From assembly GCF_001545035.1 (NCBI RefSeq), contig NZ_FCOJ02000008.1:112900-176899 (forward strand): DNA of 64,000 nt, in the 5' to 3' direction. Shown here piece after piece: positions 34,302 to 45,385 of the stretch. This stretch comes from Caballeronia glebae. Its GTDB lineage: Bacteria; Pseudomonadota; Gammaproteobacteria; Burkholderiales; Burkholderiaceae. The notes beneath the pieces are model-generated. The model did no database searches. It worked only from the letters and a program-made list of their open reading frames with translations, and was not told where the DNA came from. The stretch's first letter is position 1, and every line of letters begins with the position of its first letter. A program made the translations under genes and the position numbers.

Positions 34302-35324
34302 ATGCGCGACGAATCCATTTCTTTGACTGCCGAATGGCTGCCGATTTGCAATAGCGAAGACGTGCCGGAAGGCGGCGTGCGTGGGTTCATCGTCGCCGAC
34401 GAGCGCATTGTCGTGTGGCGCGACAGCATCGGCGCGGCGCATGTTTGGCGCGATTACTGTCCGCACCGGGGCGCGCAGTTGTCGCTCGGGCACGTGATGC
34501 GCGATCAGATCGTGTGTCCGTATCACGGCTGGCGTTACGACATCGAAGGACAGTGTTTGCGGATTCCGTCGAATCCGTCGTTGCGTCCTTCGAAGCGCGC
34601 GTGCGCGACGACTTTCGTGTGTGAGGAGAAATACGGTGTCGTATGGATGTGCTTCGGTGAGCCCGCCTATGCGCTCGATTTCTTTCCCGAAGCCGCGATT
34701 GCCGGTGGCCGGCGAATCAACCTCACGCCGCAGACGGTGAAGTCATCGGCGCCGCGCATCGTTGAGAATTTTCTGGATATGGCGCATTTCTCGTTCGTGC
34801 ATGCGGGCATTTTGGGCGAAGAGACGCATACGGAAGTGCCGGATTATGAAGTGGTCGCGAGCGCTGAAGGTCTGGAAGCGCGGCAATGCCGATACTGGCA
34901 GCCCGCTGGAATGCCGGGGCAAGGCGGCGGCGCGATGATCGATTATGTGTATCGCGTGAAGCGGCCGTTGATCGCGAGTCTCACGAAGATGGCGTCGGGC
35001 GGGCAGGGCGCGCTGCATATCATGCTGGCGGCGTCGCCGGTTACGCAGACGGAGACGCGCGCGTGGCTCGTTTCCATTCACGAGGACGATTCCACGCATT
35101 CCGATCAGGCGCTTTACGACTTCAATATGGAGATCCTGATGCACGACACGCCAATCGTGGAGTCGCAATGGCCCCGGCGTCTGCCGCTCGATCTCGATGC
35201 GGAGTTGCATCAGAAGTGCGATCGGATGGCGGTGGCTTATAGACGGTGGCTGGCGGGGATGGGGTTTGGGTGGGGGACGGTGAGGGGCGAAGCGGCTGAG
35301 TCGGATATTGTTGGGGAGGGCTGA
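34302..35324 (+). CDS. Rieske non-haem iron oxygenase, alpha subunit type
   Basis: The 340-residue protein is an aromatic-ring-hydroxylating or O-demethylating oxygenase of the vanillate demethylase/PobA-like group. The Rieske [2Fe-2S] ligands are Cys53, His55, Cys72 and His75 (CPHRG, CPYHGW). The mononuclear iron site is in NFLDMAHFSFVH, with His162 and His167. The reductase partner is not encoded nearby. The substrate is unknown. The Shine-Dalgarno is weak. Its 3' end lies 41 bases from the restriction cassette, and this stretch (35325-35365) is the likely left border of the accessory island. Confidence 0.9.
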   Translation: MRDESISLTAEWLPICNSEDVPEGGVRGFIVADERIVVWRDSIGAAHVWRDYCPHRGAQLSLGHVMRDQIVCPYHGWRYDIEGQCLRIPSNPSLRPSKRACATTFVCEEKYGVVWMCFGEPAYALDFFPEAAIAGGRRINLTPQTVKSSAPRIVENFLDMAHFSFVHAGILGEETHTEVPDYEVVASAEGLEARQCRYWQPAGMPGQGGGAMIDYVYRVKRPLIASLTKMASGGQGALHIMLAASPVTQTETRAWLVSIHEDDSTHSDQALYDFNMEILMHDTPIVESQWPRRLPLDLDAELHQKCDRMAVAYRRWLAGMGFGWGTVRGEAAESDIVGEG

Positions 35325-35365
35325 GTCGTCGAAGCGGGCGATCAAGGCGCCTTGATAACTGGATG

Positions 35366-36082
35366 TCACTCGCTCCAGCTCTGGTGTCCCAACGGCAGAG
35401 CGTTCAACTCAGCGCGCGACTCGCGCCATTGTGGCCAGTACTGGTCGATCAGTGCGACAAAGCGACCGCTGTGTGTCGGCTCTAGCAGGTGCAGCATCTC
35501 GTGCAAAACGACATACTCAACAAGATCCTTGGGCTTCTTCACCAATTCGGTGTTGAGACGGATGTTGCCTGCGCGGTGATTGCAGCTGCCCCACTTGGTC
35601 TTCATGCGTTGCAAGAAGTAGCTCGAAACGTGCACACCGAGCTTCGGCTCCCATTTGGCGATCAATTGCGGCACCAGTGCATGCATCAAGGACTTGTGCC
35701 AGGCGTGCATCACCTCGGCGCGTTTGGCTAGGTCGTGGCCCGGACGCACCGAGAGCGTGATGCGCTTGTGGTCCAGCTTGACGAAGGGCTTCACGTCCAC
35801 CTCCACCACGGTCATCAGGTGGCGGCGGCCCCATAGCTCGTGAGTCTCACGCTCACGGAACTGGCGCGGTGTCTCGCGAGCCTGGGCTTTCAGCGTTTTT
35901 TGCTGCTGGCGAATCCACGCGAGCTTGGAGATCGCATAGGCCCGCGCCACTTCCGTGCGGGTACTCAGCGGCGCCACCAAGGTCACGCGCCCCTCGGGAG
36001 GGTGCACGGTGAGGTGCACGTTCTTTACGTCTTTGCGGATCAGATCGATCCGTAGCGGACCCAAGGTAATCTCTTCGCTCAT
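35366..36082 (-). CDS. YgjP/WLM-family zinc metallopeptidase (SprT-like) in the restriction cassette
   Basis: The 238-residue protein has the gluzincin motif HEMLH (His194, Glu195, His198) with a likely third ligand His204 in EPTHS, preceded by the conserved KTKWGSC (about 161-167). This places it in the DUF45/YgjP family of predicted zinc-dependent peptidases, related to WLM/SprT proteases. Its ATG shares one base with the hsdR stop (TGATG), so it is translated as part of the hsd operon. Homologues are often found next to hsdR; the role is not established, and regulated turnover of HsdR or DNA-protein crosslink cleavage are speculations. Confidence 0.85.
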   Translation of the reverse strand: MSEEITLGPLRIDLIRKDVKNVHLTVHPPEGRVTLVAPLSTRTEVARAYAISKLAWIRQQQKTLKAQARETPRQFRERETHELWGRRHLMTVVEVDVKPFVKLDHKRITLSVRPGHDLAKRAEVMHAWHKSLMHALVPQLIAKWEPKLGVHVSSYFLQRMKTKWGSCNHRAGNIRLNTELVKKPKDLVEYVVLHEMLHLLEPTHSGRFVALIDQYWPQWRESRAELNALPLGHQSWSE

Positions 36083-39000
36083 CAATATCCTGGCTGGTTC
36101 TTGATAATCTCGAAGATGGCCATGGTGGCGGCCTTGTTCCTCTTCATGATCGGGTAGATGGCGTTCAGCACCTGGGCCTCCCGCGTGGAGTCGCCTTTCC
36201 AGCCTGCCGGCGCTTTTTCACGAATAGTCTTGTCAAGCATCAGTGCCAAAGCCAGATACTCGTCGCCATAGGTTGGCGTAGGTTCCGCAGCGGTGTTTTC
36301 CGGCACAGCGGCGGCCAGCACGCTGGGTAAGTTGTTGTAGAGAACGCCCGCCTCCTTGTTGCCATGCAGCGCGGTCGGCAGCTTCTTGCTGTCTTGCTCT
36401 TGATTGCTCAATTTCTTGGCCAGAGCCTCGGCGTCCTTCAAAAACTGCTCGTAGCTATCGGTGTCGTCACGTTTCTGCTGAATCAGGTCTTCCAGCAACG
36501 TGGACATCTGCTCGTAGTACTTCGGGTCGGTCAACTGATCTCGGATGATGGTCTTGCGAACGTTGTTGATGATGCCTTCCGCAATCGCGTTACGTGACAG
36601 CTTGCCCTTTTCGTTGAGTTTTCTGGCAATTGCATCGTGGATGCCCGTCTCGATGATCAGTTCGGTCAAGGACAGCGAACTCAAGTCGCCCAGCAAATCT
36701 GCCGGATCGGCCTGGATGTATGTGTCAATGAGGTGACGCATGTCAGCTTCGAAGGGCTTCGTGTCCAATTCTTCGCCAGAGTGATTCTTGATCGCAGCGC
36801 GCACCTCGCTGTAGAAAGCCGTTTCCTTCTCGAAGATCTCGATTTGCGGCGCGCTGTAGCCTGCTTCATCCAAGTTCTGTGCCAGATCTGCATAGGCACG
36901 CACGTAGGCTGCCACTGCCTTGTAGAAGGCAATGCGCAGCGGTTCAGTGTCGTCCAAGGCAGCGGCGTCTGCCGCATTGCCGCAGAAGTAATGAATGTGC
37001 TGCTCGATACCTTGCGGTTGCTTGACCGGCGCACAAAGGTAGATCAGCCCTTCGCGTGCCGCATCGAGCTTGGCCTTGCCCTCGTCGCGCCAGTCCTTGA
37101 CGATCGGGTTGCCGTCGTCGCCACAGGACTCTGTGTCCAGCTCATCCGAGGTGTAGACCGCAATCGCGTCCTGCACCTTGCTGAACAGCTCCTTGTAGTC
37201 GACTATGTAACCGTAATCCTTGTCCTCGCCGTCCAGCCGGTTCGTGCGGCAGATAGCCTGGAACAGGTTATGTTCTCGCAGCTCGTTGTCCAGATAGATG
37301 TAGGTGCAGCTGGGCGCGTCGAAGCCGGTCAGCAGCTTGCTCACTACGATCAGCAATTTCAGGTTGGCCGGCTCCTCGATAAACCGGCGCTTCATCTCTG
37401 TCTCGTACTGCGTGGTGGTCTGTTTCGCCTTAAGCACGTGCCGGGTGTACGTGTCGAATTTGTAGCGTTCGTCACTGTCCTTGGGCTCTTGCGAGATGGC
37501 GTTGTGCTTCGGCTCAAACGACGTGATGATGCCGCAGTGCTTGCCAAAGTTCGTGTTCTGAAACAGCCGGTAGTAGTGGCAGGCGTCGTAGATCGAGGCC
37601 GCCACCAGGATGGCCGTGCCGCGATCGTTGTTTAGCCTGGGCCGAACGCCAAAATCGTGAATGATGTCCGCCAGGATGCGCTGCTTGCGCTCGCCCGAGC
37701 TCATTAGCTCTTCGAGCGTGGCCCACCGTTTGCGCAGCATCGACTTCTGGTAGTTGTTGAGGCCCTTGGCGGCCTTCTCGAACCACTCGTCCACCGCTTT
37801 GGGTGAGGTCAGGCGCTGCGGCACCGCACGGGCCTCGTACTTCAGGTCCAGCACTACCTTGTCGGCCACCGCCTCGTTGAACTTGTAGGTGTGGATGAAG
37901 CTGCCAAACACCTCGCGGGTCGTCTGCCTGTCGCGGCGCAATAGCGGCGTTCCGGTGAAGCCAATGAAGATCGCAGTGGCGAGCCAGCGCTTCATCTGCT
38001 TGTTCATGTCGCCACCCTGTGTGCGGTGGCATTCGTCCACGAACACATAAAAGCGGCCCGCTACCTCGGGGGGCTCGCCCTTCAGGTTGGTTGCATCGAT
38101 CTTGTGAATCAGCGCGCACATTAGCCGCGGCGATGCGGAGCCAAGCTTTTCCACCAGATCTTTGCGCGACTGGATGCGGGGCGACGGCGCCTCCGCGCCG
38201 ATGACGCCGGCGTTCCTCATGACGCCCTCGATCTGCTTGTCCAGTTCATCGCGGTCCGTCACCACCAAAATGCGTGCATCCGGGTCGTGTTCCAGCAACC
38301 ACTTGGCGATCAACACCATCAGGATGCTCTTGCCGCTGCCCTGGGTGTGCCAGATCACGCCGCCTTCCTGCTTCTTGATGCGCACCTGCGCCGCCTTCAC
38401 ACCTTCGAATTGATGCAATCGTGGGACCTTTTTCTGACCCGCGTCGAAGATCACGAAGTTGCGAAGCAGGTCCAGCAGCCGAGCTGGGTCCAGCATTTGA
38501 CAGAGCGGCCCGTCGAGCAACTCACCTTCGGATGGTTCGGTACTTTCACCGCTTAATTGGTGATGCTTCCATTCGACGAAGAACTTCTCCGGTGTGCCCG
38601 TGGTGCCATAGCGCAGACCCTGCGAATCACTGCCAGCCAGCACCAACTGCACCGTGCTGAAGAAGCCCAGATTGAAGATATCTTCCTGGTTGGTGATGAG
38701 CTGGCGGATACCGTTGGCCATGTCCACCGAGCTACGTTTAAGTTCCACTACCGCCAGCGCTATCCCATTCACGTAAAGCACAATGTCGGGGCGCCGCTCG
38801 TGCCCACCTTTCAGGGTGACCTCCTCGGCCAGTGCGAAGTGGTTGTTCTCCGGTGTGGCCCAGTCGATCAGGTGAACCGTCTCATGCGGCACGCCTGCCG
38901 CCACTTGCACCGGCACGCCGTAGCGCAAAAGCTGGTAGGTCCGCAAGTTGGCTTGATAGAGCGTGATGCCGGTGGCGTCCGCCGCAGCCATCAGCATCTG

Positions 39001-39204
39001 GATCGCTTGCGAGATATGAAGGTCCGAATAGCCGCGCGCCTTCAAATTATCGCGTAGGTACGCTGATTCGATGCATCGATTTTCCGCCCGCTTGCTCCAA
39101 TTGCCCAAGTTGGCGTAGCCCAGGCCACCAACCGGCACTGACGCGCAGATCCGCTTGACGATGCGGTTTTGAGTGATCCGTTCGGGACGAAGCGGCTGGA
39201 TCAT
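36082..39204 (-). CDS. hsdR: Type I restriction enzyme, R subunit (HsdR)
   Basis: HsdR supplies ATP-driven translocation and cleavage in Type I systems. The 1040-residue protein has an N-terminal PD-(D/E)XK nuclease with Pro139-Asp140, Glu154 and Lys156 (RPDIVLYVNG, VVELKRS). Two RecA-like motor domains follow, with Walker A TQGSGKS (287-293), the DEAD-box variant DECH (390-393) and FTGTPLL. The C-terminal region is helical. All catalytic residues are intact. The start overlaps the stop of the upstream DUF262 gene (ATGA), and the stop overlaps the next start, so the cassette is one operon. Confidence 0.95.
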   Translation of the reverse strand: MIQPLRPERITQNRIVKRICASVPVGGLGYANLGNWSKRAENRCIESAYLRDNLKARGYSDLHISQAIQMLMAAADATGITLYQANLRTYQLLRYGVPVQVAAGVPHETVHLIDWATPENNHFALAEEVTLKGGHERRPDIVLYVNGIALAVVELKRSSVDMANGIRQLITNQEDIFNLGFFSTVQLVLAGSDSQGLRYGTTGTPEKFFVEWKHHQLSGESTEPSEGELLDGPLCQMLDPARLLDLLRNFVIFDAGQKKVPRLHQFEGVKAAQVRIKKQEGGVIWHTQGSGKSILMVLIAKWLLEHDPDARILVVTDRDELDKQIEGVMRNAGVIGAEAPSPRIQSRKDLVEKLGSASPRLMCALIHKIDATNLKGEPPEVAGRFYVFVDECHRTQGGDMNKQMKRWLATAIFIGFTGTPLLRRDRQTTREVFGSFIHTYKFNEAVADKVVLDLKYEARAVPQRLTSPKAVDEWFEKAAKGLNNYQKSMLRKRWATLEELMSSGERKQRILADIIHDFGVRPRLNNDRGTAILVAASIYDACHYYRLFQNTNFGKHCGIITSFEPKHNAISQEPKDSDERYKFDTYTRHVLKAKQTTTQYETEMKRRFIEEPANLKLLIVVSKLLTGFDAPSCTYIYLDNELREHNLFQAICRTNRLDGEDKDYGYIVDYKELFSKVQDAIAVYTSDELDTESCGDDGNPIVKDWRDEGKAKLDAAREGLIYLCAPVKQPQGIEQHIHYFCGNAADAAALDDTEPLRIAFYKAVAAYVRAYADLAQNLDEAGYSAPQIEIFEKETAFYSEVRAAIKNHSGEELDTKPFEADMRHLIDTYIQADPADLLGDLSSLSLTELIIETGIHDAIARKLNEKGKLSRNAIAEGIINNVRKTIIRDQLTDPKYYEQMSTLLEDLIQQKRDDTDSYEQFLKDAEALAKKLSNQEQDSKKLPTALHGNKEAGVLYNNLPSVLAAAVPENTAAEPTPTYGDEYLALALMLDKTIREKAPAGWKGDSTREAQVLNAIYPIMKRNKAATMAIFEIIKNQPGY

Positions 39205-41072
39205 ATGGCCGCCTCGCGCAATCGCTTAGGTGACCATACGTGTTCCATCAAGGCTGCCACCAGATCGCGCCTCGCCTGCTGTTCTTTCTTGGTGAATTGG
39301 TCAAAAGCTTTGAACGGTAGATGGTGGACAGCAGCGAACTGCTGAAACTGCGGCTGATGCAGGTACGCGCTGGCGTCGAGGCTGGCCGCATAGAAATTCT
39401 GCTTGGCGTAATGTGCGCGCTTGCCGGCGAACGGCTTGGCCTGCAGGCTGCGGTTCACGTCGGCAGGCAGCAACAGCAGCGAGGCGACGTGGTCGCGCCA
39501 CTCCTGGAACTCCTGCTCGTCTGCAAAGTGCCCCTTTACTGCCTCGAAGTCGTCGGCCCAGATGTGCTCGATGTCGAACGGGTTCTTGACCTCGCGGTTG
39601 ACCAACTTGTCGAACGACTCAGTGCGTCCCGCACCGGCCTCGGTCGCGGCGGTCAGGCGCGCCAACAGGTGGACGATGTAGCGGCGGCTGAACTGGTTCA
39701 GGCCCAATCCGTCGATGCCCGTGCGGCCTCGGGCTGAGCTGCCCGCAAAGGTTACGTCGTCCTCGGCCAGCTTGTGGGTCAGGACCTCAACAAGTTCGGT
39801 CAAAGGCTTGCGACGGATGTCGCGGCACAGCAGCCACATGGCATACGACACGCTCGAATATCCGACTCGAATGTAATTCACCACGCGACGCATCAGCCAG
39901 ATGTCCAGATAGGTGGCCGTCACGGCCAGCTTGCGGCGCATGGCGTCATCGTCGTCTGTCTCCACCAGCGGTGCTAGCAGCACCGTGCCCTGCCAGGTGA
40001 AATCGTTGTGGGCGTTGTAATAGATCGCCTCGAGCCCCGGTGTGTAGTGTCGACTGGCGTCGAGGATGCGCCGGTAGGCCTTGGCAAAAAACGGGAAGCT
40101 CTCGGTCATCAGCTTCTGGTTGGCCTGTGCGTTGCCCAAGCCGAGTTGCACGCTGTGATCGCGTACCCAGCGGTGAAAGACCGAACCGATCAGCTCCCAG
40201 TCCTTGTCTACGGCGCCGGCCTTGCGTTCGCGCATGGTCTCGGCGAACTGCGCACGCAGCCAGGCCTTGATGCAGTTGGCGTCGCGCTCGGGCTCGTGGC
40301 CGCTGCCCCAGGAGATCAGCTCCAGCACCTGCTGCTTCCAGGTCTGGTTGGCCTGTACGCGGGCCTGAGGCTCGTCGATGGGAGCCAGCAGGTAAGCCTT
40401 GAGCATGTCCACGGGGCTCAACGGCTTGCCCCGGTCGTTCATGGTTTCGAAGATTGCGTAGGCGTAGTTGTCGTTATCGGTGGCGATTTCGATCAACCCC
40501 ACGCGCGTCAGCAGCCAGTAGATGAAGTGCGGCAGCGCGTCGCCGAGATCGACCAACAAGTCGTTGGCCTCGATGTCGCCGTAACGGGCGTACATCGTCT
40601 GAATGGACTCGTCTTTGCCTTCCGGGTTGTAGTCCTTGCCCTGGAACAACGCCTGGATGACGGGTAAGCGCTCGGGGATGTCGAGGTTGAACTTGGGCTG
40701 GCCGAGGTTGTCACTGAAAATCAGCGGCGCCATGGTCTTGGACACCGGCAAATCCTGGGCTTCCGCGGCACGGTACAGGCAGATCAGCAGCAGCGTCAAC
40801 GAGGTCACCCGCTGCTGGCCATCGATTAGGTAGTTCTTGCCATTACGCTTGCTGACGATGATGGAGCCGAGGAAATACTCGCCATAGCCGCTGACCGCAG
40901 GGGTCTCGTCGCCCAGCTTGTATTGACTGAAGAACTTGGCCTGCAGGTCCGACAGCAGTTCGTCGATATTCTCCTTTTCCCACTTGTACTCGCGCTGGTA
41001 CTCGTCGATGGAGAACGACTGGCTTTGCAATAACTGTTGCACGCTGCGGTAATGCGGTGTGATGGCGCTCAT
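39201..41072 (-). CDS. GmrSD-like DUF262/DUF1524 nuclease embedded in the Type I operon
   Basis: The 623-residue protein begins with the DUF262 core: EYQREYKW (about 24-31) and DGQQR (84-88), the ParB/sulfiredoxin-fold NTP-hydrolysing motif of GmrS. Its C-terminal part has a DUF1524-type HNH-like segment DIEHIWADD around His503 (GmrD-like). GmrSD-type enzymes are modification-dependent (Type IV) nucleases acting on phage DNA with hydroxymethyl- or glucosyl-cytosine. The histidine motif here lacks the usual following proline, so activity is not assured. GAGGA precedes the ATG; it begins 9 bases after hsdS and overlaps hsdR. Confidence 0.88.
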   Translation of the reverse strand: MSAITPHYRSVQQLLQSQSFSIDEYQREYKWEKENIDELLSDLQAKFFSQYKLGDETPAVSGYGEYFLGSIIVSKRNGKNYLIDGQQRVTSLTLLLICLYRAAEAQDLPVSKTMAPLIFSDNLGQPKFNLDIPERLPVIQALFQGKDYNPEGKDESIQTMYARYGDIEANDLLVDLGDALPHFIYWLLTRVGLIEIATDNDNYAYAIFETMNDRGKPLSPVDMLKAYLLAPIDEPQARVQANQTWKQQVLELISWGSGHEPERDANCIKAWLRAQFAETMRERKAGAVDKDWELIGSVFHRWVRDHSVQLGLGNAQANQKLMTESFPFFAKAYRRILDASRHYTPGLEAIYYNAHNDFTWQGTVLLAPLVETDDDDAMRRKLAVTATYLDIWLMRRVVNYIRVGYSSVSYAMWLLCRDIRRKPLTELVEVLTHKLAEDDVTFAGSSARGRTGIDGLGLNQFSRRYIVHLLARLTAATEAGAGRTESFDKLVNREVKNPFDIEHIWADDFEAVKGHFADEQEFQEWRDHVASLLLLPADVNRSLQAKPFAGKRAHYAKQNFYAASLDASAYLHQPQFQQFAAVHHLPFKAFDQFTKKEQQARRDLVAALMEHVWSPKRLREAAI

Positions 41073-41081
41073 GGCGTGTCC

Positions 41082-42326
41082 TCACGCGTCTTGGCTTTGT
41101 GTCTCGGGCTTCTTTGGGGCTGTCTCGTGGGCGATACCTACGAGGCGCGTTCTGCCGGTCAGCAGCTCTTGCATCATCCCTTGCTTGATGGCGCGGGTTT
41201 TGGCAAGGCGGGATTCGAGGGTGGAGAGGTCCGCGTCCATGTCTGTGAGGATGGCTGCGATGGCTGCCTGCTCTGCTGGGTCGGACGGCAGTGCAACGAT
41301 TGCATTGGCCACGTCCGTTGAATTCACGGAATCAAAAGTCGAGCCTTTCGACATTCGAGACCATCTTGGTTCCAGGTTGATAAGCGCGTGATATAGAAAG
41401 TCGTTCGGGAATCGAATCGCGCACACCCCCCGGCCTAAGCAGCAGTCAAAAGTTGCACGCGAAATCTCACCGACCGGGGCTCGTACTGACATCAACACGT
41501 CTCCCTTGCGCCCTCGCTTGGTAACCTGAGTAGTGAAAATTCGCTTAATCGTCCGACGCTTCCTCACGTCGGCGTTGCCTTGAATCAGTGGCAGGCCCTC
41601 TCGGCGAACGTTGTAATTTACAGAACTCGGAGATTGCCCCATTTCTATTTGGGCGATTTCTTCCAAGCATGCCTCCACCCACTCTCCACTGAAGCCCGGT
41701 AGGCGGGTACGGCCGGCCAGGAGTTGCTGCATCGCGGCCTGTTTGATGTCGCGTTTTTTGGCGATCAGCCGCTCCAGCCCGGCTATCAGGTCATCGACGT
41801 CGGACAGGGCGTTGGCGATGCGTTCCTGTTCAACTTCCTTCTTGGGCCAAGCCAACTGCAGATCAGCGAATCTAGATACGCCCAAGTGTGCAACCGAGGT
41901 TGTCTGCAACGCAATCTTCGCGAAGCTCCCCGTTTTCTGGCAATTTCTAAAGACGTAGGAAGCGAACTGTGCCGAAACTCCAGGCTTTGCCCGGAATCGC
42001 AACAATGCGTTCTGAATCGCGCAGGGCTCTGGATACTCTTCCGCATAAATTGAACACCGGCCAACCAACTCAAGACTTTGCCCTTCGTTCAATAACACAT
42101 CGCCTTTTCGAATCCGAAACGTTTCGAACTGTTCATCCGTCATCGGCATTTCGAGAACGTCGTCAACAACGATTCGACCATCGAAGACATTCTTCGTGCG
42201 CAGATACGGGCGCATGTGTCCAGGCGCCGTTGCAGCCAGAGCTTTGCCGGCAATGACTTCGCCCAACTCCCGAACCGCCCGGACCTCCCAGCCGTCGGGA
42301 CAATGCGACTCTGACTTCATTCCCAT
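41082..42326 (-). CDS. hsdS: Type I restriction enzyme, specificity subunit (HsdS)
   Basis: HsdS recognises the bipartite DNA target for both modification and cleavage. The 414 residues show two target-recognition domains separated and closed by two matching conserved helices: LSDVDDLIAGLERLIAKK...IKQAAMQQLLAGRTRLPG in the middle, and LTDMDADLSTLESRLAKT...IKQGMMQELLTGRTRLVG at the end. The recognition domains have clearly lower GC than the host, as expected for exchanged specificity modules. The ATG at 42326 or the internal one at 42320, which overlaps the hsdM stop (ATGA), may be used. Confidence 0.95.
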   Translation of the reverse strand: MGMKSESHCPDGWEVRAVRELGEVIAGKALAATAPGHMRPYLRTKNVFDGRIVVDDVLEMPMTDEQFETFRIRKGDVLLNEGQSLELVGRCSIYAEEYPEPCAIQNALLRFRAKPGVSAQFASYVFRNCQKTGSFAKIALQTTSVAHLGVSRFADLQLAWPKKEVEQERIANALSDVDDLIAGLERLIAKKRDIKQAAMQQLLAGRTRLPGFSGEWVEACLEEIAQIEMGQSPSSVNYNVRREGLPLIQGNADVRKRRTIKRIFTTQVTKRGRKGDVLMSVRAPVGEISRATFDCCLGRGVCAIRFPNDFLYHALINLEPRWSRMSKGSTFDSVNSTDVANAIVALPSDPAEQAAIAAILTDMDADLSTLESRLAKTRAIKQGMMQELLTGRTRLVGIAHETAPKKPETQSQDA

Positions 42327-44744
42327 ACCACCCCCATTCGCGTCAAGTGGCCATCCACCTTGGTTGACAAGGACGCCACCGCGTCCATTTGGGCTGGCAG
42401 TGGCACGGCATAGCGCTCCGCCAGCTCGCGAATCCGCCGAGTCACCGTCTGACTGACGCGGTCAAGTTCAGCTTGCAAATCGTCGGCGAGGCGGGCGAGC
42501 CACTTGTCATTCACGACCAGCCTCTGGATGTCAATAGCGATAAGCTTGTCGTACTGGTCATGAGCCAACTGGTCCAGCTCGGCATCCAGCTCCTTGACTG
42601 CTTTCTTTAAGGTCGCTTCATCGCCGGTGAGCTTTAGCCAGTCTTTCAGCACCTTCAGTTCTGCGGCGCCGTCCGGGTCATCACCGACCTCCTTGATGCG
42701 ATCCTTCACAGCAGCCACATTGATCTTCTCGAAGCTGCCAAACACGGCGTCTTCACCGCTGTGTTCTTCTTCCAGCGCAGTGATCGCGCTGCCCACCGAA
42801 TCCAGCTCGGCCTGCTTGGCATCCAGCGCCGCCTGCTCCGCGGCGAAGTAGTGCGCCACAATGAGAGGCTTGGGAACCAGCTCGCAGGCCCAGCCCTTAT
42901 CTTTCTTCTTGCCCTTCTTGTCCGTCTCGATGATGCGCGCCGGCTTGGCCACCCAGCCGTCCAGGGCAATCGTGTAGGCATCGTCCTGCATCGCTTCCGC
43001 CCAGTAGTCCATCAGGTGCTGATAAACGCTGTAGGCGTCGATTAGCGGCGCGGACTTGACACTGACCAGCAGGTCTTCCGACAGCAGTTCAAGGAATGCC
43101 TTGGGATGGTCGCCGATCTTGAAGCCCTTCATGCGCGGCTCATTGCGAGCTTGCCAGTCGGCAAAGCGCTGGGTCACGGTGGCCTGGAAGGCGCTGAACT
43201 CGGCATGCCCGAGAATCGCGGACTTGACCTCAGCCACAGGCTGCTGGAGTTGGCTGTAGCCCTCTCGCAGCGGCGCAAACAATGTGGTCCGTAGCGCGGG
43301 CATTACCTGCCAGTAGGCGGCCAGAACGCTGGTGGCGCCAACGATGTCGCGGTCCGGAATGCCCCCATTCAGATGGGCGCTGAGGTCCTGGATGTCTTCG
43401 GCTTCCGTGTTGTCGATGTAGCGCGGCAGATTGAGGTTGTAGCCGTTCTTCTCGCTGGCGATCTCGCTGACCGACACCATGCGGGCGTAGCCGGGCACGT
43501 CGTCCAGCTTGTGGAAGCTGTCGACAATGCGGTGCAGGTCCTGTTCGCGCAGGCGGTTCTTGTTGCCGTCCTTGATGAAGCCCTTGCTGGCGTCGATCAT
43601 CATCACGCCCTTGCGCGCGTCGGCGTTCTGCCTGTCCAGCACCAGGATGCAGGCAGGGATGCCAGTGCCGTAGAACAGGTTGGCCGGCAGGCCGATGATG
43701 CCCTTGAGGATGCCGCTGCTCACCAGTTGCTTGCGGATGACGGCTTCCGCATTACCGCGAAACAGCACCCCATGCGGCAGGATGCAGGCCGCCTTCCCGC
43801 TGGCCTTCATACTGCGGATGATGTGCAGCAGGTAGGCGTAGTCGCCCTGTTTGGCGGGCGGCGCGCCCCAAGTGAAACGCTTGTAGGGATCGTCGGTGGG
43901 GGTGAGGCCCGTGCTCCAGGCCTTGTCGGAAAACGGCGGGTTGGCCACCACATAGTCGTAGGTGCGCAGTTGCTCACCATCCTTGAACTTCGGATTGGCC
44001 AGAGTGTTGCCGCTGAGAATGTTGGCCGTGGGGAAGTTGTGCAGGATCATGTTCATCCGCGCCAAGCCGGCGGTGGTCACGTCCTTCTCTTGGCCTTCCA
44101 GCGTGATGTGCTTGCCGGCCTCGGCGGCCACCTTCAGCAGCAGCGAGCCCGAGCCACAGGTGGGGTCGTAGGCGGTGGTGCTGGCCTTGGTGTTGGCGGG
44201 CGAGATGCCGATGACCTTGGCGATGACCCGGCTGACTTCGGACGGCGTGTAGAACTGGCCCTTGCTTTTGCCACTCTCGGTAGCGAAGTGGCGCATCAGA
44301 TACTCGTACGCATCCCCCAGGATGTCGTCGTGCTCGGCACGGTTTTGCGAGAAGTCCAGCTCGGGTTTCTGGAAGATGCTCACCAGGTTCGTGAGGCGCT
44401 CCACCATCTCGGCGCCGGTGCCTAGCTTCTCGGGATCGTTGAAATTGGGAAAGTCGCTGCGCGCAAGCCGGCTGTTGGCATCGATCAGCGGCTGGATAAT
44501 CTGGGTGTTGATCCTGTCGCCGATGTCGCTCTTGCCCGAGCGCGATCATGTCTTTGAAGCTGGCGCCCTTGGGGATGATAACCGGCGGCGCAAAGTCGTC
44601 GCTATCGGCGTACTTGTCGCTGATGTACTTGATAAACAGCATGAACAGGACGTAGTCCTTGTACTGGCTGGCATCCATGCCGCCGCGCAGTTCGTCGCAA
44701 GAGGCCCAAAGAGAGGAATATAGGTCTGATTTCTTGATGGCCAT
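42317..44744 (-). pseudogene. hsdM: Type I DNA methyltransferase subunit HsdM, frameshifted
   Basis: HsdM is the N6-adenine methyltransferase subunit. The frame from ATG 44744 gives 69 good N-terminal residues (MAIKKSDLYSSLWASCDELR... to FKDMIAL). HsdM homology then moves to another frame near 44537 and continues GKSDIGDRINTQIIQPL to the end. That second frame has motif I DPTCGSGSLLLK and the catalytic NPPF. Homologues read ...ALKGKSD here, so two bases appear to be missing. Total span is 3n+1. The intact downstream frame has an ATG at 44407 but would lack about 112 N-terminal residues. A sequencing error is possible; if real, modification would be lost or depend on re-initiation. Confidence 0.88.
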
Positions 44745-45309
44745 GGCGTTCGTTTTCGAGCATTAATCCGGTTCCGCGTCAGCGCAAATTTTACCCTGCA
44801 GGGGGCGGACAAAAGAACGATACGGCTACGCAGTTTGAAAGGGAATTTCTGCCGCTATCGATTCTGTGTAAGAGACTTCGCGATCTCCTTCCGCCAATTT
44901 TCTCTGACCGCAGATCCGAGGCCGGTTTGCGCAGTTGCCGTTTCGGCTCAGTTGCACTTCGTTCATCGTCTTTTGCCCACGTGCTTTTATCGTTTATTGT
45001 GAGACTTGACCGGCTTATGAAACATGACATGCCGTCGCATATCCGCATCAGCAGACACGTTCCAAACTTCGAATTTTGAGATTTCGGCGAGACGGCCGTA
45101 CGACAGGCCGAGTTATCCCTCGTTGCTTCAAGGACGCACTCGGCAAGCTGGGATTGCGACAGCATCGCCGGTGACGATTGCCTTTCGACTGAAATTAGCG
45201 CGCTCTGCCACGATGGCGCTGATGATCAGGACAGCAAGGCTTGATTTTCTATACGCAGCGGACGAAGAGACCGAGAAATTGCGCGAACCCTAACTAGGTA
45301 CGGCGATAT
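44745..45309. other. 565-base non-coding or remnant region between hsdM and tRNA-Arg
   Basis: GC is visibly lower than in the core genome. Two open frames of about 90-124 codons exist (plus strand 45024-45293, minus strand 44791-45165), but neither resembles a known family and both have unbiased codon use; I regard them as chance. I see no integrase gene and no copy of the tRNA 3' end that would act as an attachment site. A -10-like TAAAAT on the minus strand lies near 44794-44799, a possible hsd promoter without a clear -35. Confidence 0.45.
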
Positions 45310-45385
45310 TGGTGCGCCCGGCTGGGATCGAACCAGCAACCCCTGCCTTCGGAGGGCAGTACTCTATCCATTGAGCTACGGGCGC
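45310..45385 (-). tRNA. tRNA-Arg, anticodon CCG
   Basis: Read on the minus strand, GCGCCCG forms a 7-bp acceptor stem with CGGGCGC, followed by discriminator A and an encoded CCA (45312-45310). The D arm GTAGCTCAATGGATAGAG, the anticodon arm CTGCC-CTCCGAA-GGCAG and the T arm GGTTCGATCC are all present. The anticodon loop CTCCGAA gives anticodon CCG, reading CGG arginine codons. Length is 76 with CCA. Its 3' end faces the restriction cassette, a common arrangement for islands inserted at tRNA genes. Confidence 0.96.

Follow-up and report, generated by a model that had tools for sequence, protein, structure and literature searches.

Gene organization of the locus

The window analyzed here is a stretch of 64,000 nucleotides from Caballeronia glebae (assembly GCF_001545035.1, contig NZ_FCOJ02000008.1, positions 112,900 to 176,899 of the forward strand), whose genome comprises 7.84 Mb in 194 contigs. 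It contains a Type I restriction-modification (R-M) operon, in which the five genes hsdM, hsdS, a GmrSD-like gene, hsdR and ygjP are all located on the minus strand and run from position 44744 down to 35366 of the window. The focus of this work is the last gene, ygjP, which encodes a predicted zinc peptidase. As judged from the sequence comparisons described below, the GmrSD-like gene is an exchangeable cargo of this operon, whereas the hsdR-ygjP pair is not exchangeable.

In the direction of reading, hsdM begins with an N-terminal part (44539..44744, from the ATG at 44744 to a break in the frame; HsdM_N according to Pfam) and continues in a different frame with the larger downstream part (42317..44407, from the first listed ATG; N6_Mtase). 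It is followed by hsdS (41082..42326), coding for a specificity subunit of 414 amino acids (aa) with two Methylase_S stretches, by the gene for the GmrSD-like protein (39201..41072, 623 aa, DUF262 plus DUF1524) in the slot between hsdS and hsdR, by hsdR (36082..39204), a single open frame for the motor-nuclease subunit of 1040 aa, and finally by ygjP (35366..36082). hsdM and hsdS overlap by 10 bases, hsdS and the GmrSD-like gene are separated by 9 bases, and the latter overlaps hsdR by 4 bases (ATGA). hsdR and ygjP share one base (TGATG) if ygjP starts with the ATG at 36082, or four bases if the TTG at 36085 is taken as its start. The original prediction had described the five genes as one operon, with the peptidase coupled to hsdR by a one-base overlap; the overlap was confirmed for the ATG start, and strand, coordinates, order and tight junctions all agree with an operon, but hsdM is not one open frame.

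The names of hsdM, hsdS, the GmrSD-like gene and hsdR are in agreement with both Pfam and PADLOC. HsdR exhibits the N-terminal nuclease domain HSDR_N and the translocase domains SWI2_SNF2 and T1R_D3-like in Pfam, scores 481 bits against NCBIfam TIGR00348 (cut-off 284.55) and matches the HsdR of EcoR124I (2w00) with an E-value of 5e-40, while HsdS matches the PADLOC profile Specificity_I with 2.6e-95. Both the HsdR domains and the HsdS specificity domains are therefore those of a Type I system. In NCBIfam, HsdM and HsdS remained below their cut-offs and no match was obtained for the GmrSD-like protein.

Sequence and fold of the peptidase

The product of ygjP matches the Pfam families YgjP-like with 182 bits (cut-off 26) and SprT-like with 33.5 bits (cut-off 25.6), and no match was found in PADLOC or NCBIfam. 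The label WLM, under which the peptidase had originally been described, does not appear among the Pfam matches. Numbered from the TTG, the protein carries the motif HExxH at residues 195–199 and a further histidine at position 205, as is characteristic of a YgjP/SprT-like zinc peptidase; H195, E196, H199 and H205 are invariant in 37 of 37 aligned rows. Three YgjP-like places exist in the C. glebae genome, one of them being the ygjP of the window.

A structure model of the peptidase reached a predicted local distance difference test score (pLDDT) of 89.2. In the model, the catalytic half appears to resemble the DNA-protein-crosslink proteases SPRTN and Wss1 as well as the minigluzincins abylysin, jannalysin and selecase; the identity within these fold alignments amounts to 13–20%, and the N-terminal half (residues 1–118) is barely covered. 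The entries 6mdx and 6mdw, whose title names DNA-protein-crosslink repair, are presumably SPRTN, and we know of no DNA-dependent activity of YgjP. A sequence search against solved structures gave no convincing relative (best E 0.0029). As a side observation, a full-length relative of the peptidase with 33% identity is encoded in a phage record from human faeces (PV036457.1:4222-4923).

Linkage of ygjP to hsdR

In order to describe the near relatives, the best 80 of 193 loci from an HsdR scan of genome contigs were considered (L005–L084; loci are denoted by L numbers throughout). A ygjP open reading frame follows hsdR directly and on the same strand in all 80 of them. Its aligned start lies within 30 bases of hsdR in 79 loci and at about 200 bases in L075, and in most relatives both genes overlap. 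The loci originate from Pseudomonadota (52), Verrucomicrobiota (6), Acidobacteriota (6), Planctomycetota (4), Chlorobiota (4), Thermodesulfobacteriota (3), Myxococcota (2) and Fibrobacterota (1), two of them being without a phylum name.

Since near relatives share ancestry, a second sample was taken independently of the peptidase: 249 genomes from across the phylum were analyzed for the HsdR family TIGR00348, which was matched in 143 of them and above its cut-off in 84. Among the rows listed, and with the window included, coordinates place a YgjP match downstream of 31 of the 120 HsdR rows above the cut-off, a peptidase read in two pieces being counted once. Re-annotation of 100 of these 120 loci with local profiles (all except the window, G052:C167, G085:C235 and the 17 lowest rows) revealed ygjP directly downstream in 31 and its absence in 61 with at least 900 bases downstream, the stretch being too short in 8; ygjP thus follows hsdR in 31 of 92 decidable loci. 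In none of the 100 re-annotated loci was it found on the opposite strand.

The distribution of ygjP was mapped onto a FastTree phylogeny of 117 HsdRs, consisting of 91 rows of the phylum-wide sample (one decidable row shorter than 800 aa was left out), 25 of the 80 near relatives and the window. The label requires only 3 changes, compared with 39.4 on average for shuffled labels, none of 500 shuffles being as low; some long branches meet in this tree, and the change count is independent of the root and cannot separate gain from loss. The gene occurs in an all-or-none fashion, in every row of four branches and in no row of the others. TIGR00348 represents one HsdR subfamily, and HsdRs of the EcoKI and EcoAI type lie outside this sample; the EcoKI locus of K-12 contains no ygjP.

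Furthermore, the sequences of both proteins vary together. For 55 linked pairs the distances of HsdR and YgjP correlate with a Mantel r of 0.983, which was not reached in any of 2000 permutations (best 0.388), and within the branch of the window r is 0.976 for 34 pairs. In a YgjP tree of 83 rows, support was obtained for a group of 36 that includes the window; 34 of these rows are linked to hsdR. The exceptions are L089 and L097, which fall into the YgjP clade of the window and show no HsdR in the bases examined. The other full-length YgjP of the C. glebae genome (L001) groups elsewhere, with 12 unlinked rows forming a supported set of their own that includes it. A more careful tree was calculated from 61 rows, for which 17 linked rows and the unlinked or undecidable L113, L220, L232, L234 and L235 were left out to shorten the tree and to avoid the longest branches. 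Here the linked label needs 6 changes and a single linked group is rejected (p-AU 0.00035 in the approximately unbiased test). Because of these changes and the rejected monophyly, the sequence data indicate that ygjP either became attached to hsdR on more than one occasion or was separated from it repeatedly.

Within E. coli, 250 of 253 records matching the stretch from hsdR to the peptidase gene (M48) of locus L237 contain 80% or more of this stretch at a single site, mostly with an identity of at least 99%. Among plasmids, 47 records match, 8 of which were examined. A full HsdR lies directly upstream of ygjP on three (Rhodococcus pDF01, Aliarcobacter pCNAC48 and pMpar-1 of Methylocystis parvus OBBP, L259), whereas on Deinococcus pRadio3 and Synechocystis pSYSG pieces of HsdR extend across the start of the record and are missing from the gene table, the last hsdR piece of pSYSG being in another frame. 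Of the remaining plasmids, pEC4103 (L260) carries an hsdR remnant and L256 and L258 carry no HsdR. Decayed copies were also observed: in L239, an E. coli plasmid, hsdR is interrupted by insertion sequences and no peptidase gene is present in the stretch, and on pEC4103 the peptidase gene remains behind the hsdR remnant.

Variable cargo between hsdS and hsdR

The stretch between hsdS and hsdR was evaluated for the 64 of the 80 near relatives in which both genes were recognized. It measures at most 100 bases in 17 loci, 100–300 bases in one and 568–5371 bases in 46. Around the slot, 105 proteins of at least 140 aa other than HsdS were collected, some of which are encoded on the opposite strand or fall outside a well-defined slot; 30 of them were scanned with Pfam and all of them by phmmer with the GmrSD-like protein of the window. 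The Pfam matches comprise Schlafen AlbA_2 with a Fic-like C-terminus, DUF1016/YhcG nuclease, AAA_21, AAA_13 with a DUF1643 neighbour, GmrSD, Fic, RhuM, TIR (L031), PD-(D/E)XK families and NucS_C, while 10 of the 30 proteins gave no match and one matched a transposase. A CBASS-like pair, consisting of SMODS + AGS_C on the one hand and SLATT_4 on the other, was located between hsdS and hsdR at L013:4576-6493. KwaB-like and AbiH matches were obtained only below their cut-offs.

GmrSD-type cargo occurs in at least 8 of the 80 loci (L005, L006, L015, L027, L048, L051, L064 and L071). The original prediction expected the order hsdM-hsdS-DUF262-hsdR-YgjP to be conserved elsewhere. It indeed recurs with a close relative of the GmrSD-like gene in L005, L006 and L051, and L027 carries a distant DUF262 gene in the same position, but no more cases than these were found among the 80 loci, 64 of which exhibit both hsdS and hsdR, so that the exact five-gene order was discarded as a conserved unit. 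In L071 a GmrSD gene precedes hsdR and no hsdS was recognized by profile. In E. coli the slots of the same plan contain DarTG (L237), two DUF262 genes (L238) or DUF262 together with an ATPase and an unknown gene (L236).

Several further arrangements were noted. The Synechocystis PCC 6803 plasmid pSYSG (L253, L261) carries hsdS, a nucleotidyltransferase, a member of the zeta toxin family, DUF4433 and a macro-domain gene, followed by hsdR and ygjP; the DUF4433 and macro-domain genes we take to be DarTG-like. On Deinococcus radiophilus pRadio3 (L257, L262) the order is methyltransferase-hsdS-DUF262-RelE/HigA-Fic-hsdR-ygjP, with a toxin-antitoxin pair and Fic beside the DUF262 cargo. A second copy of the last 57–60 hsdM codons is found downstream of hsdM in two loci, after an extra open frame in L010 (L010:5417-5833) and inside or after one in L017 (L017:3898-4269), which suggests that the junction of hsdM and hsdS may admit cargo as well, together with a duplicated hsdM end.

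The GmrSD-like protein

According to Pfam the protein consists of GmrSD_N (1.6e-34) and GmrSD_C (2.5e-8), and its best PADLOC match is HEC-06 (4e-36). It is the only GmrSD_N match in the C. glebae genome. In an alignment with 20 near rows the DUF262 motifs QR, DGQQR and FxxxN are all present in every row. The DUF1524 part contains EH and the asparagine N540; in all 21 near rows, window included, a serine replaces the asparagine in front of the L-rich stretch, a position at which the solved DUF262 proteins 20yv and 9jfl have asparagine. The protein may plausibly be an active nuclease of the modification-dependent Type IV kind. A fold model of the protein was discarded as too poor (pLDDT 54.5).

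The best 120 of 4779 protein matches, query excluded, are 79–94% identical to the GmrSD-like protein. A scan of 368 further genomes of the class detected more distant relatives (25–42% identity) in four. One of them lies in a Type I locus (L268) and one has HsdS and HsdM matches nearby (L271), while L269 and L270 gave no Type I match in the stretch examined. In none of the four was YgjP matched within 11–13 kb around the gene, and a tie between GmrSD and the peptidase was therefore rejected. In view of its patchy occurrence, GmrSD probably works apart from the peptidase.

Frame shift in hsdM

Comparison with L005, L006 and L072 locates the shift between the two hsdM frames at 44530..44545 and reveals a net loss of 2 bases at about position 44538. 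In L005 and L006 hsdM is a single open frame of 812 and 820 codons, respectively; the window lacks a complete HsdM in one open frame, and a profile scan yielded no second N6_Mtase match in the genome. Among the 58 loci with an HsdM match, hsdM is also split in L013, L018 and L083, at other positions than in the window; the loss of hsdM is hence not unique to the window. As the reading frame is otherwise uninterrupted on either side of the break, the shift should be either a recent mutation or a sequencing or assembly error. A programmed frameshift or phase variation was rejected: no simple repeat was seen at the break by eye, no repeat search being made, and the shift is absent from the three relatives compared directly. 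The R-M part of this strain may thus be silent. If the shift is real, it would switch off R-M, and nothing but the GmrSD part and the peptidase would still be intact.

Insertion at a tRNA-Arg gene

The operon belongs to an island (35297..45309, no strand assigned) which starts at the 3' end of a tRNA-Arg (CCG) gene (45310..45385, minus strand). The tRNA/cytochrome side is matched in every one of 31 genomes from the genus, that of C. glebae included. For the comparison of the site 12 loci were kept, one of them from the genome itself. An empty site was found in 7 of the 11 others (L241, L242, L244, L245, L249, L250 and L251), where only 30–158 bases separate the 3' end of the tRNA from the end of the Rieske gene region (35279-35296 in the window). 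L246 and L247 carry about 875 and 1347 bases in place of the island, and in L243 and L248 no Rieske match was found within the locus. The operon thus represents an inserted segment of about 10 kb which is missing from these congeners.

No repeat of the tRNA 3' end of useful length was detected at the far side of the island within the window, and the list of open reading frames contains none longer than 153 codons that has all or most of its length between hsdM and the tRNA. A low G+C content was rejected as a sign of import: the operon exhibits 57–60% and the near flanks mostly 62–67%, yet the first 15 kb of the window are mostly at 59–63%. Some congeners have, several kb away, a further copy of about 46–49 bases of the tRNA-Arg 3' end, for example at G257:C21:130445-130493 and G252:C97:113543-113591, about 3.5 kb and 16 kb from the main copy. 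The tRNA-Arg gene looks like an insertion hot spot in the genus, the second copies resembling those at the far end of an integrated island.

Proposed role of the peptidase

The operon follows the Type I plan hsdM-hsdS-(variable cargo)-hsdR-ygjP, and we propose that its YgjP/SprT-like peptidase would serve as an internal safety device by cleaving HsdR or its complexes with DNA, while the GmrSD-like cargo would cut phage DNA with modified bases and cover those phages whose modified DNA escapes HsdR. The probability of this reading we estimate at roughly 0.48. Built-in proteolytic control fits the data best because ygjP is fixed behind hsdR and mostly overlaps it, because it tracks HsdR and not the cargo, and because the predicted fold appears close to proteases clearing DNA-bound proteins. 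The original prediction that the peptidase controls HsdR gained strong comparative support from the 80 near relatives, the branch-wise occurrence and the correlated distances; the proteolysis of HsdR itself we infer. The trigger could be an HsdR complex on the unmodified DNA of the cell, as may arise in a new host or after repair, by analogy with EcoKI, where ClpXP breaks down HsdR once translocating complexes have formed on self DNA that lacks modification (PMC4231737). An own peptidase would then let the system settle in many hosts. Generalized further, the YgjP/SprT-like peptidase may be a constant fourth part of large Type I branches in many phyla and serve them as their own restriction-alleviation or complex-clearing protease, which would destroy HsdR engaged on self DNA in place of the host ClpXP, a proposal that we regard as tentative. 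A slight argument against proteolytic control comes from EcoR124I, whose restriction alleviation neither requires ClpXP nor involves a loss of HsdR (PMC4231737), which means that proteolysis is not the sole route of alleviation.

Different roles were considered. The slot of the operon carries defence genes of many kinds, and a peptidase switch, CapP cleaving CapH, is known from another defence system (PMC12255303), so that the peptidase might itself be a defence effector or sensor which, once infection occurs, cleaves a protein of the host or of the phage (e.g. one directed against restriction), with HsdR as a mere genetic partner or activator. For such an effector an exchange like that of the slot cargo would be expected, instead of an r of 0.98 with HsdR and an all-or-none occurrence by HsdR branch, which renders this role unlikely. 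A slightly weaker case can be made for a maturation or assembly factor, which would trim HsdR (or HsdM/HsdS) once and would be needed for restriction rather than act as a brake. An obligate partner of this kind agrees with the constant presence in these HsdR branches and with the overlap with hsdR, and minigluzincins such as selecase have a narrow substrate choice, although the next-ranked fold relatives are DNA-protein-crosslink proteases.

It appears rather improbable that ygjP is a neutral passenger travelling with hsdR by operon inheritance. Correlated trees can arise from co-inheritance alone and unlinked members of the same clade exist, but no row without ygjP was found in the four ygjP-bearing HsdR branches (57 rows), the active site is intact in all aligned rows, and the gene was joined to hsdR, or separated from it, on more than one occasion. 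A single composite system of GmrSD, peptidase and Type I genes, as put forward in the original prediction, we consider highly improbable: it would account for the five-gene order in L005, L006 and L051, the distant DUF262 in L027 and the DUF262 with further genes in the pRadio3 slot, yet DUF262 cargo was found in just 8 of 80 loci with the Pfam and phmmer coverage given above, and the four distant GmrSD relatives, two in Type I surroundings and two without, show no YgjP match.

If the proposed safety device is correct, a gene missed by defence libraries such as PADLOC and NCBIfam would be a regular part of one of the best-known defence families. How Type I systems discriminate invading unmodified DNA from an unmodified host has been called "still unresolved" (PMC3874165); should an entire branch supply an HsdR peptidase itself, this question becomes testable by removal of a single gene. 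The gap between hsdS and hsdR in this HsdR branch is moreover a landing place for defence genes and should be useful for finding new ones.

Comparison with known systems

The job proposed here for the peptidase corresponds to the restriction alleviation of EcoKI, in which proteolysis of HsdR spares unmodified self DNA (PMC4231737, PMC3874165). On self DNA, the host ClpXP holds back the enzymes of Type IA and IB, and EcoR124I (IC) is held back without ClpXP (PMC3874165). ClpXP is an ATP-dependent protease of the host, whereas the peptidase of the window is small, zinc-dependent by its motif and encoded in the operon; the predicted fold of its catalytic half appears to be near that of the SPRTN/Wss1 proteases and the minigluzincins.

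Additional genes between hsdS and hsdR of Type I operons are known, namely RloF, TgvAB and DarTG2 (PMC4619093, PMC11411939, PMC12255303), and among the defence functions found next to GmrSD, Type I domains occur most often (PMC4619093, PMC11411939). RloF of Campylobacter jejuni is a DUF262 protein between hsdS and hsdR, as in the window (Machnicka et al., PMC4619093); the available text of this survey of the GmrSD family makes no mention of a peptidase. TgvAB likewise lies amid the Type I genes of the VPI-2 operon of Vibrio cholerae and is reported to protect against Tevenvirinae even when the HsdR nuclease is mutated (PMC11411939). It differs from the window in consisting of two proteins, TgvA (DUF262) and TgvB (DUF262-DUF1524), instead of one fused protein, and no peptidase is mentioned for this operon in the available part of the paper. 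HEC-06 is a GmrSD-like protein embedded in Hma clusters (PMC11411939), while the host cluster in the window is Type I. The complementary cover of modified phage DNA suggested originally is thus a reasonable idea, which has already been published.

Among the closest known arrangements is the RRDM island of enteropathogenic E. coli, RptR-hsdM-hsdS-DarTG2-hsdR-M48 (PMC12255303, 2025), which shares the plan hsdM-hsdS-(cargo)-hsdR-peptidase with the window. It is headed by RptR and carries DarTG2 as cargo in place of the GmrSD-like gene. Its peptidase (WP_001122107.1) follows directly after hsdR (L237), is YgjP-like by Pfam (208.5 bits) and 35% identical to that of the window. The M48 gene is named, without a function assay in the text examined, and is shown among the conserved neighbours of RptR homologues in the legend of Fig. 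8 (PMC12255303). In the open-access literature, to which the search was confined (subscription papers and preprints lying outside its scope), this paper alone was found to describe this peptidase with a Type I system, and a branch-wide rule linking HsdR and the peptidase was not found. With respect to the claim of an under-described system, GmrSD inside a Type I operon is accordingly already known, but the peptidase has been printed for one island only, and the branch-wide link between HsdR and the peptidase appears to be the new part.

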